DNA of 64,000 nt from Schizochytrium sp. TIO01 (lineage: Eukaryota; Sar; Bigyra; Thraustochytrida; Thraustochytriidae), in the NCBI GenBank assembly GCA_004764695.1, contig SMSO01000033.1, positions 2,805,001 through 2,869,000 of the forward strand, read 5' to 3'. The position numbers were made by a program, and so were the translations under genes. The notes beneath the pieces were generated by a model. That model saw nothing but the letters and a program-made list of their open reading frames with translations, did no database searches and was not told the DNA's origin. Of the stretch, positions 58,498 to 64,000 are shown piece after piece (positions within the stretch are counted from its first letter, which is position 1; each line of letters begins with the position of its first letter).

Positions 58498-61400
58498 ATG
58501 TCAGACCACCGACGTGTTGTCGCTGACTTTGCACAGCTTCAGATTTATGCTATGTCAGATCAACGATATGTTGACGCTGCTCTTAAACAGCTTCAGAAGG
58601 GCGCTACAACATTGAAGTAAGTTATCGCTTGCTTGCTTGCTTGCTTGCTTGCTTGCTTGCTTGCTTGCTTGCTTGCTTGCTTGCTTGCTTGCTTGCTTGC
58701 TTGCTTGCTTGCTTGCTTGCTTGCTTGCTTGCTTGCTTGCTTGCTTGCTTGCTTGCTTGCTTGCTTGCTTGCTTGCTTGCTTGCTTGCTTGCTTGCTTGC
58801 TTGCTTGCTTGCTTGCTTGCTTGCTTGCTTGCTTGCTTGCTTGCTTGCTTGCTTGCTTGCTTGCTTGCTTGCTTGCTTGGCTGGGTAGCTGTTTGTTTAG
58901 TTGGATCGCAAGTTCATGCGATTGCTTGTTTGGTTGATTTATTGAGTATGCATCCATCAAAACAAAGAGCAACAACGAAGATGAAATCCCGAAAGCCAAC
59001 CTGGATCACTCACGTCCATGCATGCATGCGTGCATCTATGCAATATAATGCAATATAATGCAATATCATGCAATATCATGCAATATCATGTATTGCTTGC
59101 CATCAATCAATTGAACCGACAGTCTTAAGGACAACAACATCGGCGACGAGGGCGCCAAGGCAGTGGCTGTGGCGCTGAAAGAGAACCGGTCGCTGACATC
59201 ACTCAAGTAAGTTGTCTCAGCAACACCACAGCTTATGGACTTGTTTGTACATGATATTTGCTTTGTTGTTTGGTGGGTGGGTCGGTGTTGTTTTGCAAGT
59301 TTATGCAATCTCTTGTTTGTTTGTTTGTTTGTTTGTTTGTTTGTTTGTTTGTTTGTTTGTTTGTTTGTTTGTTTGTTTGTTTGTTTGTTTGTTTGTTTGT
59401 TTGTTTGTTTGTTCGATGAATGGATGGATGGATGGATGAATGAATAAGTTGTCTGTTTGACTCAATATGCATCGATCGAACAAAGAGCAAAATGACAACG
59501 CAGCAAAGATGAAATCCTGAAAGCTAACCTAGATCACTCATGTCCATGCATGTATGCGTGGTTCCAATGCAATGGAATGTATTGCTTGCCCTTATTCAAT
59601 CAAATCGACAGTCTTTATAACAACAAGATCGGCGACGAGGGCGCCAAGGCAGTGGCTGCGGCGCTGAAAGAGAACCGGTCGCTGACATCACTCAAGTAAG
59701 TTATCTTGGCAACACCGCAGCTCAATAGACTTGTTTGTACATGATGATTGCTTCGTTGGTGTCTTGTTCTGGACAGTGTTGTTTTGCAGGTTTGTGCAAT
59801 TGCTTGATTGTTTGATAGATGGATAAGATGTCTGTTTGACTAAGTATGCATCCATCAAACAAAGAGGAACTGGACAACACAACAAAGATAAATGCTGAAA
59901 GCCAACCTAGATCACTCACGTCCATGCATGCATGCGTGCATCTATTGTAATATGTAACGTGTAATGTATTGCTTGCCATCATTCAATCAAATCGACAGTC
60001 TTCAAAACAACCAGATCGGCGACGAGGGCGCCAAGGCAGTGGCTGCGGCGCTGAAAGAGAACCGGTCGCTGACATCACTTGAGTAAGTTGTCTACACAAC
60101 ACCGCAGCTCGTGGACTTGTTTGTACATGATGCTTGGTTTGTTGTTTGGTGGGTGGGTCGGTGTTGTTTTGCAAGTTTATGCAATCGCTTGTTTGTTTGA
60201 TGGATGGATGGGTTGTCTGTTTGAGTGAGTATACATCCTTCGAACAAAGAGCAAAATGACAACACAACAAAGATAAATGCTGAAAGCCAACCTAGATCAC
60301 TCACGTCCATGCATGCATCTAATGCAATGCAATGTAATATATTGCTTTCCATCATTTGATTAAATCTACAGTCTTACACGCAACAGGTTTGGCGACGAGG
60401 GCGCTAAGGCAGTGGGTACCGCGCTAAAAGAAAACCGGTCGCTGACATCACTTGAGTAAGTTGTCTACGCAACACCGCAGCTCGTGGACTTGTTTGTACA
60501 TGATGCTTGGTTTGTTGTTTGGTGGGTGGGTCGGTGTTGTTTGGCAAGTTTATGCAATCGGTTGATTGTTTGATGGATAGATAGGTTGTCTGTTTGACTG
60601 AGCACGCATCCATCGAACAAAGAGCAAAATGACAATACAGCAAAGATGAAATCCTGAAAGCCAACCTAGATTACTCACGTCCATGCATGCATGCGTGCAT
60701 CTCATGCAATGTAAATTATTGCTTGCCATCATTCAATCAAATCAACAGTCTTCAAAGCAACAGCATCGGCTCAGAGGGCGCCAAGGCAGTGGGTGCGGCG
60801 CTGAAAGAGAATCGGTCGCTGACATCACTTGAGTAAGTTGTCTTAGCAACACCACAGCCTTGTTTCGTTGGTGTATTGTTTCGGAAAATGTTGTTTTGCA
60901 AGTTTATGCAATCGCTTGAGTGTTTGATAGATGGATAAGTTGTCTGTTCGAGTGAGTATACATCAATCGAACAAACAGCAAAATGACAACACAACAAAGA
61001 TGAAATCCTGAAAGCCAACCTCGATCACTCACGTCCATGCATGCATGCGTGCATCTATTGTAATATGTAACGTGTAATGTATTGCTTTCCATCATTCAAT
61101 CAAATCGACAGTCTTAGAGGCAACCAGATCGGCGACGAGGGCGCCAAGGCAGTGGCTGCGGTACTGAAAGAGAACCGGTCGCTGACATCACTTGTGTAAG
61201 TTGTCTACGCAACACCGCAGCTCGTGGACTTGTTTGTGTATGATGCTTGGTTTGTTGTTTGGTGGGTGGGTCGGTGTTGTTTTGCAAGTTTATGCAATCG
61301 CTTGTTTGTTTGATGGATGGATGAGTTGTCTGTTTGAGTGAGTATACATCCATCGAGCAAAGAGCAAAATGACAACACAACAAAGATAAAATCTCGAAAG

Positions 61401-64000
61401 CCAACCTAGACCACTCACATCCATGCTTCGATGCATGCATCTATTGTAATATGTAACGTGTAATGTATTGCTTGCCATCATTAAATCAAATCGACAGTCT
61501 TGAATGCAACCAAATCGGCGACGAGGGCGCCAAGGCAGTGGGTGCGGCGCTGAAAGTGAACCAGTCGCTGGCATCACTCAAGTAAGTTGTCTAAGCAGTA
61601 GCTCGTGGACTTATTTGTACATCGGGCTTGCTTGGGTTAGTGTATTTTTTTGGTTGATGTTAATTTGCAACTTTATTCAATCGCTTGTTTGTTTGATGGA
61701 TGGATGAATCACCTGTTTGACTGAGTATGCATCCATCGAACAACGAGCAGAATGGCAACACAACAAAGATGAAATCCTGAAAGCCAGCCTAGATCACTCA
61801 CGTCCATGCATACATGCATCTAATGCAATGTAATGTATTGCTTGCCATCATTCAATCAAATCGACAGTCTTCAAAACAACTATATCGGCGACGAGGGCGC
61901 CAAGGTAGTGAGTGCGGCGCTGAAAGAGAACCGGTCGCTGACATCACTTGAGTAAGTTGTCTTAGCAACACCGCAGCCTTGCTTCGTTGGTGTGTTGTTT
62001 TTAATCGGTGTTGTTTGGCAAGTTTATGCACTCACTTGTTTGTTTGATGGATGGATAAGTTGTCTGTTTGACTGAGTATACATCCATCGAACAAAGAGCA
62101 AAATGACAACACAACAAAAATTAAATACTGAAAGTCAACCTAGATCACTCACGTCCATGCATGCATGCGTGCGTGTGTCTATTGTAACATGTAACGTGTA
62201 ATGTATTGCTTGCCATCATTCAATCAAATCGACAGTCTTCAACGCAACCGCATCGGCTCAGAGGGCGCCAAGACAGTGGCTGCGGCGCTGAAAGGAAATT
62301 GTTCGCTGAAATCACTATCGTAAGTTGTCTACGCAACACCGCAGCGCATGGACTTGTTTGTACATGATGTTTGCTTTGTTGTTTGGTGGTTGGGTCGGTG
62401 TTGTTTTGCAAGTTTATGCGATCTCTTGTTTGTTTGATGAATGAATAAATTGTCTGTCTCACGAAGTATGCATCCATCGAACAAAGGGCAAAATGACCAC
62501 ACAAGAAAGATGAAATCTTGAAAGCCAACCTAGATCACTCACATCCATGCATGCATGCGTACATCAAGTGCAATGTAATGTATTGCTTGCCATCATTCAA
62601 TCAAATGGACAGTCTTTATGACAACAATATCGGCGACGAGGGCACCAAGGCAGTGGGTGCGGCGCTGAAAGAGAATCGGTCGCTAGCATCACTATCGTAA
62701 GTTATCTTAGCAACATCACAGCTCATGAGCTTGTTTGTACATGATGCTTGCTTCGTTGGTGTGTTGTTTTGATTGATGTCGTTTTGCAAGTTCATGTAAT
62801 CTCTTGCTTTCTTGTTTGTTTGTTTGATGGTTGGAATAAAGGATGGATAAGTTGTCTGTTTCACGAAGTATGCATCTATCGAACAAAGGGCAAAATGACC
62901 ACACAAGAAAGATGAAATTCTGAAAGCCAACCTAGATCACTCACGTCCATGCATGCATGCGTACATCAAGTGCAATGTAATGTATTGTTTGCTATCATTC
63001 GATTAAACTGACAGTATTCAACACAACCGCATCGGCGACGAGGGCGCCAAGGCAGTGGGTGCGGCGCTGAAAGAGAACCGGTCGCTGACATCACTATCGT
63101 AAGTTGTCTACGCAACACCACAGTTCGTGGACTTTGTTTGTACATGATGCTTGCATTGTTGTTTGGTGGGTCGGTGTCGGTTTGCAGGTTTGTGCAATTG
63201 CTTGATTGTTTGATAGATGGATAAGATGTCTGTTTGACTAAGTATGCATCCATCAAACAAAGAGGAACTGGACAACACAACAAAGATAAATGCTGAAAGC
63301 CAACCTAGATCACTCACGTCCATGCATGCATGCGTGCATCTATTGTAATATGTAACGTGTAATGTATTGCTTGCCATCATTCAATCAAATCGACAGTCTT
63401 CAAAACAACCAGATCGGCGACGAGGGCGCCAAGGCAGTGGCTGCGGCGCTGAAAGAGAACCGGTCGCTGACATCACTTGAGTAAGTTGTCTACGCAACAC
63501 CGCAGCTCGTGGACTTGTTTGTACACAATGCTTGCTTCGTTGGTGTGTTGTTTTGATTGATGTTGTTTTGCAAGTTCATGTAATCTCTTGCTTTCTTGTT
63601 TGTTTGTTTGATAGTTGGATTAAAGGATGGATAAGTTGTCTGTTTCACGAAGTATGCATCCATCGAACAAAGGGCAAAATGACCACACAAGAAAGATGAA
63701 ATTCTGAAAGCCAACCTAGATCACTCACGTCCATGCATGCATGCGTACATCAAGTGCAATGTAATGTATTGTTTGCTATCATTCGATTAAACTGACAGTC
63801 TTCAACACAACCGCATCGGCGACGAGGGCGCCAAGGCAGTGGGTGCGGCGCTGAAAGAGAATCGGTCGCTAGCATCACTATCGTAAGTTATATTAGCAAC
63901 ATCACAGCTCATGAGCTTGTTTGTACATGATGCTTGCTTCGTTGGTGTATTGTTTTGGTCGGTGTCGTTTAGCAAGTTTATGCAACCGGTTGTTTGTTTG
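58498..64000 (+). CDS. LRR receptor paralogue, first exon plus 13 LRR exons, 3' end outside window
   Basis: Exon 1 is 58498-58616, homologous to that of the minus-strand gene (MSDQRYVDAALKQLQKGATTL against MSNQPAV...LRQGATTL). Then thirteen 84-bp exons start at 59123, 59612, 59999, 60372, 60749, 61112, 61498, 61868, 62236, 62613, 63015, 63397 and 63799. All have a CAG acceptor, GTAAGT donor and the same phase. Each encodes L-x-x-N-x-I-G-D-E-G-A-K-A-V-A-A-A-L-K-E-N-R-S-L-T-S-L plus a split codon. The LRR type is ribonuclease-inhibitor-like. By analogy with its neighbour, the missing 3' part may encode ROC-COR-TIR, but this is not visible. Exons and introns are very similar to each other, which indicates recent expansion. 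Exon 1 contains an internal 54-bp duplication (second ATG at 58552). Confidence 0.85.
58627..58879. repeat. (GCTT)n microsatellite, about 63 copies, in intron 1
   Basis: An uninterrupted GCTT tetranucleotide run of about 253 bp. It creates artificial open frames on both strands (Leu-Ala-Cys-Leu and Ser-Lys-Gln-Ala repeats) that are not genes. Confidence 0.97.
59314..59413. repeat. (GTTT)n microsatellite in intron 2
   Basis: About 100 bp of GTTT tetranucleotides, followed by GATG repeats. Other introns of the array carry only two to four GTTT copies at the same place, so this is a local expansion. Confidence 0.95.
59783..60095. repeat. 313-bp segment repeated exactly at 63181-63493
   Basis: By eye the two segments are identical through 216 bp of intron, the whole 84-bp LRR exon and 13 bp of the following intron, offset 3398 bp. 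The first difference downstream is at 60096. Confidence 0.9.

Follow-up and report, generated by a model that had tools for sequence, protein, structure and literature searches.

One leucine-rich repeat per exon: a dispersed gene family of Schizochytrium sp. TIO01 with diversity focused on the predicted binding face

For the LRR-ROCO genes of the brown algae Ectocarpus and Saccharina, the passages of PMC11378527 on gene structure describe one leucine-rich repeat (LRR) per exon, with exons of fixed length in phase 2, variable residues on the concave face and LRR-only arrays beside the ROCO genes. Fungal NLRs with high internal conservation (e.g. HET-D/E, with WD40 repeats) undergo concerted evolution: their repeats are near-identical, are exchanged within and between genes and carry hypervariable sites on the binding face, as set out in the pertinent parts of PMC4986451 and PMC12222747. 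The zinc-finger minisatellite of PRDM9 also consists of 84-nucleotide (nt) repeats of 28 codons, in which the framework is homogenized and the contact residues vary (PMC3890296, in its portion on the repeat array). Here, a gene family of the thraustochytrid Schizochytrium sp. TIO01 is compared with these systems. The family was encountered in a stretch of 64,000 nt (hereafter: the window) on contig SMSO01000033.1, positions 2,805,001 to 2,869,000 of the forward strand, or C32:2805001-2869000 in our numbering of the contigs. C32 measures 2,901,525 bases, in an assembly of 64 Mb and 37 contigs. The focal gene of the window lies on its plus strand and is built of a first exon, an array of LRR exons (modules) and a tail exon. 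The modules differ strongly at a few codons of the predicted binding face, and their introns and remaining codons are nearly uniform.

An earlier, sequence-only reading of the window had listed 13 LRR exons with variation confined to the binding face. The list could be confirmed, as 13 exons of 84 nt lie in the same phase between 59123 and 63882 and their x-face strings equal the earlier ones letter for letter. The word 'confined' is slightly too strong: variation is focused on positions 2, 3, 5 and 28 of the repeat, but positions 8, 15, 22 and 25 vary too. In total, 246 LRR exons were collected from the loci that were read. The core set comprises the 209 modules, on 14 contigs, that pass a framework filter, and the 37 others are more diverged. 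Over the 209 modules, residue entropy reaches 3.60 bits at position 2, 3.25 at position 3 and 3.14 at position 5; it amounts to 1.65 bits at position 8 and stays below 1.0 at every other position. Codon 8 is mostly two-state, with Asp (GAC) in 107 modules, Ser (TCA) in 78 and others in 24, and codon 28, which the intron splits, mostly encodes Asn, Asp or Ser. The residue types found on the face are Ser, Arg, Gln, Gly, Tyr, Trp, Asn, Asp, Lys and Glu. In a repeat of the form LxxLxLxxNxI, the x positions 28, 2, 3 and 5 of strand and turn are exposed on the concave side. Ligand recognition by this concave face would probably be the function of the LRR proteins. The brown-algal study, in the part concerned, also locates its selected sites on the concave side (PMC11378527).

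Around every hypervariable exon lies about 300 nt of intron, which serves as an internal control within one genome and separates fast mutation from the reshuffling of old variation. To our knowledge, arrays of directly joined repeats (fungal WD40 arrays, PRDM9) offer no such control. For 201 modules, the 130 nt before and the 160 nt after the exon were aligned and all 20,100 pairs were compared. The face (11 nt) diverges by 7% where the introns differ by less than 1% (56 pairs), by 56% at an intron divergence of 1-2% (212 pairs) and by 59-62% in every bin above 2%. In a young set of 102 de-duplicated modules, less than 6% from the consensus, nucleotide diversity (pi) is 0.044 in the introns, 0.030 in the framework and 0.57 at the 16 variable sites, and Tajima's D is -2.15, -2.16 and +5.49, respectively. 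A minor allele of at least 12% is found at only 7 of about 290 intron sites (those at which 90% or more of the modules have a letter). Per module, the intron differences from the consensus have a mean of 6.7 and a variance of 10. Linkage is lost over very short distances: mean r2 (squared correlation) between exon sites is 0.37 at 1 nt, 0.067 at 3-5 nt and 0.035 at 6-11 nt, and at 50-99 nt it equals chance (0.01). Codon 3 is linked with codon 2 and weakly with codon 5, and codon 8 retains some association with codons 2, 3, 22 and 25.

The explanation to which we give reasonable credence is that of a germline LRR family in which an old pool of face codons is recombined, through short tracts, into homogenized modules under diversifying selection. 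The LRR modules would be duplicated and moved between chromosome ends. Short recombination tracts between modules, able to part neighboring codons, would then act on them, and this exchange, for which gene conversion is the presumed process, would homogenize introns and repeat framework. Selection for diverse concave faces would keep the old pool of face codons, to be recombined into new combinations. A related branch carries Roc-COR-TIR instead of the tail, and splicing of the in-frame phase-2 exons could add further combinations.

The main competitor to be weighed is ordinary positive selection, i.e. fast point mutation of the face codons after duplication (dN > dS), with no special exchange between modules. 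In the window's 13 exons, codons 2, 3, 5 and 28 have proportions of nonsynonymous (pN) and synonymous (pS) differences of 0.52 and 0.28 (ratio 1.85), compared with 0.073 and 0.139 (ratio 0.52) in the other 24 codons. Such a contrast would fit point mutation, as would the single-base nonsynonymous face changes between recent copies (e.g. GAT/GGT and CGA/CAA) and the comparison of the copies on C6 and C13, where the face changed more (5/60) than the introns (28/1407). The per-codon check put forward in the sequence-only reading is answered in part only: the excess holds within the window, but the face codons 2, 3 and 5 of the young modules give pN 0.61 and pS 0.51, a ratio of only 1.2 and no simple nonsynonymous excess. 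Since these codons differ at synonymous bases too, the data point to the shuffling of whole-codon alleles. The synonymous third base of Leu27 is likewise variable (pS 0.58), owing to its being mostly locked to the two bases that follow; together the three read ATC, TGA or CAA in 122 of 157 unique exons. The two main states of codon 8 are unlike at all three bases, and between recent duplicates the face changes at only about twice the rate of the part outside (see below), a pace that falls far short of what saturation at an intron divergence of 1.6% would take. Point mutation by itself is accordingly regarded as unlikely.

Further traces of the reshuffling preferred here are found at three levels. 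At the level of the codon, position 5 mostly uses one codon per residue: its Asn is AAT in 41 cases and AAC in 5, whereas the fixed Asn4 is AAC in 183 and AAT in 10 of the 209 modules, so that the alleles look inherited. The face-codon pair 'AGA AGC' is combined with 8 different codon-5 alleles. At the level of the module, some modules have two rare upstream intron variants in common and different faces, and C3:2299070 and C13:7309183 have four downstream variants in common and differ at codons 2, 5 and 8. Where at least two rare variants are common on both sides, codons 2, 3, 5 and 8 are kept in 8 of 8 pairs, and the exon end differs in 6 of the 8. At the level of the array, C13:4063649 and C13:7301944 have the same tail (321/321 nt), but of the LRR exons of the two genes, at least 19 in one and at least 21 in the other, none is identical (both loci were read in part). 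The tails on C7, C23 and C24 are 99.4-100% identical; C7, also read in part, equals C23 over the modules compared, and the C24 array is unlike both in module number and order, with the arrays of C23 and C24 being cut off by contig ends. The exon duplication and shuffling suggested by the sequence-only reading is supported by mosaic modules, loss of linkage and different arrays on identical tails.

The pace of change was read from recent copies, counting 15 face nt per module against the part outside the LRR exons (introns, plus the tail exon in C5/C30, C7/C23 and C23/C24). No face changes were found between C14 and C31 (0/135; outside 28/2934), C5 and C30 (0/165; 1/4140), C7 and C23 (0/75; 1/1963) or two blocks of C24 (0/45; 6/1013), and one was found between C23 and C24 (1/30; 7/1203). 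Together with C6/C13, the six comparisons sum to 6/510 nt on the face and 71/12,660 nt outside the LRR exons. A steady, fast hypermutation of all modules was rejected on the strength of the stable near-identical copies. Those of C5/C30, C7/C23 and C14/C31 may be two haplotypes.

A dedicated generator, germline or clonal, would instead combine a master backbone with randomized or re-drawn face codons in a template-directed way, like a diversity-generating retroelement or the assembly of lamprey variable lymphocyte receptors (VLRs). The near star-like backbone, the saturated face codons and the near absence of linkage are what such a device would leave, and C6 and C13 differ by one clean three-base swap of codon 8 (TCA/GAC). 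The stability of the established copies listed above speaks against it. In diversity-generating retroelements, the substitutions are confined to adenines of the template. Here, 183 of 209 modules retain AAC for Asn4, with variable codons around it, and codon 8 alternates between GAC and TCA as blocks; adenine-targeted mutagenesis was rejected on the former ground, and a template or reverse transcriptase was not searched for. The sole recombinase seen in the window belongs to a presumed IS607-like element (see below), no systematic search for reverse transcriptases or recombinases having been made. A dedicated generator is consequently rated as quite improbable.

Several observations weigh against the account of old codons recombined under selection. 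The intron Tajima's D of -2.15 is pushed down by the choice of the young set, which was picked by closeness to the consensus. C5/C30, C7/C23 and C14/C31 carry the same modules, so no active turnover is visible at that scale. Between C14 and C31, 27 of 31 differences fall in one 150-nt tract that runs from mid-exon into its intron. No donor above 81% was found for it among the 40 of 259 candidates that were scored, which leaves gene conversion unproven there and a local sequence error possible. The mosaic pairs are few and not independent: 22 share upstream variants only, and many reuse the same modules. Pairs with downstream variants in common also agree more often at codon 5 (55% vs 10%) and at codon 8 (73% vs 46%), hence linkage is not wholly lost. 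Finally, the tail has a median dN/dS of 0.79 (89 usable of 105 pairs), which means that the constraint on it is weak.

The family is large. A 25-nt module motif (at most 3 mismatches) has 408 matches in the genome, and its reversed control has none. Within the loci read, 220 of 225 motif matches are intact 84-nt exons; of the remaining 5, 2 are unrelated window sequence and 3 are exons with small indels. A few units were counted double where the loci read overlap. The exon finder sought 84-nt exons only, and the separate count started from the module motif alone. A search with the LRR_6 profile gave 17 matches among the 150 of 617 candidates that were scored; as it under-reports, the family size was taken from the DNA motifs. 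The tail has 53 matches in the genome, 3 with an internal stop and 50 without, and the family members read carry from 9 to at least 21 LRR exons. Among viral contigs, 7 pattern matches to relatives of the tail were obtained and none was confirmed.

The arrays are dispersed and enriched near contig ends. Of the 39 tail places on the 14 contigs longer than 1 Mb, 17 are interstitial and 22 fall no more than 100 kb from an end, where 4.5% would be expected; 18 of the 28 ends have a tail place. When five near-end loci were scanned for large-subunit ribosomal DNA (LSU rDNA), 4 were positive, with a partial match in each: on C32, at both ends of C3 and on C6, about 5-9 kb outside the tail exon. Chromosome ends may exchange sequence by way of this LSU rDNA. 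Besides the 5S gene of the window (see below), two were seen beyond the focal array, near the C32 end. Some arrays sit at a contig end or on a very small contig (C23, C24, C29), and the three exons with indels belong to C24 and C29, which could also suggest an assembly artefact, in which repeats were collapsed or over-polished. Diverse modules are, however, also found on large contigs far from the ends (C13, C30), the set spans 14 contigs, and consensus polishing should erase the face differences as well. An artefact is therefore deemed very improbable.

The focal gene itself is located about 30-38 kb from the end of C32. Its first exon (58498..58616, +; coordinates are those of the window) begins with the ATG at 58498, encodes an N-terminal half-repeat cap and ends in phase 2. 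It contains a 54-nt duplication (tandem repeat 58494-58597). Homologous first exons, with a similar stretch upstream as well, occur in six other loci, where a (CTTG)n run also follows; genome-wide, the first-exon pattern (at most 3 mismatches) is found at 31 places, the focal copy included. Intron 1 harbors the microsatellite (GCTT)63 (58627..58879, +, from the repeat scan), and a pure tetranucleotide run, (TTGT)25, was observed in an intron of the array (59313-59413). Both runs are possibly recombination-prone. The LRR exons, all on the plus strand, are exon 1 (LKDNNI, 59123..59206), 2 (LYNNKI, 59612..59695), 3 (LQNNQI, 59999..60082), 4 (LTRNRF, 60372..60455), 5 (LQSNSI, 60749..60832), 6 (LRGNQI, 61112..61195), 7 (LECNQI, 61498..61581), 8 (LQNNYI, 61868..61951), 9 (LQRNRI, 62236..62319), 10 (LYDNNI, 62613..62696), 11 (IQHNRI, 63015..63098), 12 (LQNNQI, 63397..63480) and 13 (LQHNRI, 63799..63882). 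Exon 12 with its flanking intron is 99% identical to the exon 3 unit over 300 nt, which indicates a recent internal duplication.

Past the window follow four further LRR exons, which brings their number to 17, and a tail exon of about 106 residues with the stop codon (C32:2869187-2870991). All LRR exons of the gene have 84 nt and phase 2, and consequently the duplication, loss or skipping of any of them leaves the reading frame intact; the window's 13 are bordered by AG and GTAAG. Their spacing (363-489 nt) leaves no room for a missed repeat. On the joined repeats, the LRR_6 profile of Pfam gives E 2.6e-99 over 11 stretches, which corresponds to the 28-residue repeat class. The tail exon has no Pfam match, no NOD domain was seen in the gene, and the downstream side of the LRRs holds no Roc-COR tandem. 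The possibility that the focal gene is a ROCO gene itself was discarded, since it closes with the tail exon in place of Roc-COR. By eye, the first exon displays no evident signal peptide, and no secretion or anchor signal is seen; the protein is probably intracellular.

A gene of the same exon design is oriented head-to-head with the focal one. Its first exon (56805..56869, -) is homologous to the focal first exon (MSNQPAVTRALEQLRQGATTL) and is followed by 15 LRR exons of 84 nt in phase 2 (52794..56496, -) and by one long exon (50159..52697, -) with Pfam matches to Roc, COR-A and TIR_2, the splice phase of which, read by eye, fits the last LRR exon. The minus-strand neighbor (56869-50159) is thus an LRR-ROCO-TIR gene. 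A 5S rRNA gene lies between the two divergent genes (57893-58006, -). C7 has a first exon of this kind too, followed by 7 LRR exons up to the site of a Roco-TIR homologue, and 13 kb on, a second first exon precedes an LRR array with a tail end (the stretch right after this first exon was not covered by the sequence read). The Roc-COR part of the query has matches at about 16 distinct loci, intactness not being verified for all. For comparison, the brown-algal study credits several SAR species, Schizochytrium aggregatum included, with at most 4 ROCO copies each (PMC11378527).

Among 17 ROCO loci (our pick among 39 matches), 6 have a tail exon at a distance of 25 kb or less. Random placement (5000 rounds) yields a mean of 0.56 and never reached 6; placement matched for contig ends yields a mean of 2.55 (P 0.012). 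C14 and C31 are near-identical copies of one duplicated locus, which makes the independent pairings fewer than 6. Both also contain 12 diverged 84-nt LRR exons (C14:70001-80000, local 7609-9641, +; C31:25001-35000, local 6950-8982, +), followed by a Roco-like match of 36% identity. These LRR-Roco-like genes appear to be an older relative adjoining the arrays. A further one-repeat-per-exon LRR array, at C32:2889854-2895764 (-), runs into an open reading frame (ORF) for a protein kinase; the kinase is its sole Pfam match, and its C-terminus is cysteine-rich and RING/IBR-like by eye.

The pairing would also suit a role of the LRR-only arrays mainly as a sequence reservoir that feeds modules to the LRR-ROCO-TIR genes, and the first exon and module design are common to both gene types. 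For kelp, such a reservoir was proposed for the LRR-only exon arrays, in the passage of PMC11378527 that deals with them. However, the LRR-only genes keep their start exon, splice sites, stop codon and a stop-free tail (50/53), none of which a pure reservoir needs. The ROCO modules of the window vary at framework positions too, and the modules on C7 (ROCO and LRR-only pooled) have a median intron divergence of 0.19 from the consensus. We therefore doubt the reservoir strongly. The proteins are most likely intracellular recognition receptors, or decoys or partners for the LRR-ROCO-TIR proteins: an LRR-only protein may sense ligands for them or compete with them. The repeated physical pairing provides a concrete hypothesis of receptor and signaler. 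A more far-reaching version seems rather unlikely to us: an anticipatory repertoire, laid out as a library of intron-flanked LRR modules across the genome, in which contact codons would be re-drawn codon by codon via a dedicated, possibly programmed short-tract exchange, the neighboring subtelomeric rDNA would carry exchange between chromosome ends, and LRR-ROCO-TIR would act as the signaling arm.

Elsewhere in the window, overlapping ORFs at 35836-37849 (+) encode a serine resolvase and a TnpB/Cas12f-like protein with HTH_OrfB (Pfam), which we take to be an IS607-like element with a Fanzor. Two tandem ORFs (5082-5909 and 6739-7731, +) have His/Gly-rich N-termini and are methyltransferase-like by eye.

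How does the family relate to the systems mentioned at the outset? The likeness to the Ectocarpus LRR-ROCO genes noted in the sequence-only reading holds for the one-repeat-per-exon design and for the neighbor with LRR, Roc-COR and TIR, but not for the focal gene, which is without Roc-COR. The neighbor differs from the brown-algal genes by its additional C-terminal TIR, and the focal family by its own tail. According to the repeat descriptions in PMC11378527, a brown-algal exon has 72 nt for a repeat of 23 residues, compared with 84 nt and 28 residues here, and its variable sites 14, 16, 18 and 19 correspond, by our mapping, to 26, 28, 2 and 3, compared with 28, 2, 3 and 5 (and 8) here. The repeats reported for the fungal NLRs, in the sections of PMC4986451 that name them, are WD, ANK or TPR, and no LRR. 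Homogenized repeats, hypervariable face sites and a copy number that varies among genes are found in both, but here each repeat is a separate exon with introns around it, a NOD domain was not found, and the 408 motif matches are dispersed. The relation is one of similar behavior, not of membership. The repeats of PRDM9 are directly joined in one gene. They encode DNA-binding zinc fingers, unlike the intron-separated LRR modules of the present multigene family.

The 28-residue class is shared with the ribonuclease-inhibitor-like LRRs (LRR_6, including the LRR domains of NLRs). The best match among solved structures is 9y6s, a chain named ribonuclease inhibitor-like protein, and ribonuclease inhibitors and NLR chains are among the structure matches listed (60 of 93). 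In contrast to these proteins, the internal identity is far higher here (by eye) and the diversity is concentrated on the face. Lamprey VLRs have constant ends, diverse LRR modules and concave-face variation, and are assembled somatically. Here, by comparison, the modules are exons of intact genes, and near-identical copies within the one assembly carry the same arrays. No paper on such arrays was found in the open-licence literature on thraustochytrids or Aurantiochytrium, which is no proof of absence; the main text of PMC12221091 contains neither 'LRR' nor 'leucine-rich', and the open-licence LRR literature yielded nothing closer than the systems compared here. The evolutionary style is thus already known from the brown-algal LRR-ROCO genes, the fungal NLR repeats and PRDM9. 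What seems to be new is that LRRs are used in this style, with one intron for every module and on such a scale; the tail family, the ROCO partner with its TIR and the sharpness of the intron control seem new as well. With these features the family speaks to the question of diversified recognition repertoires in single-celled eukaryotes.

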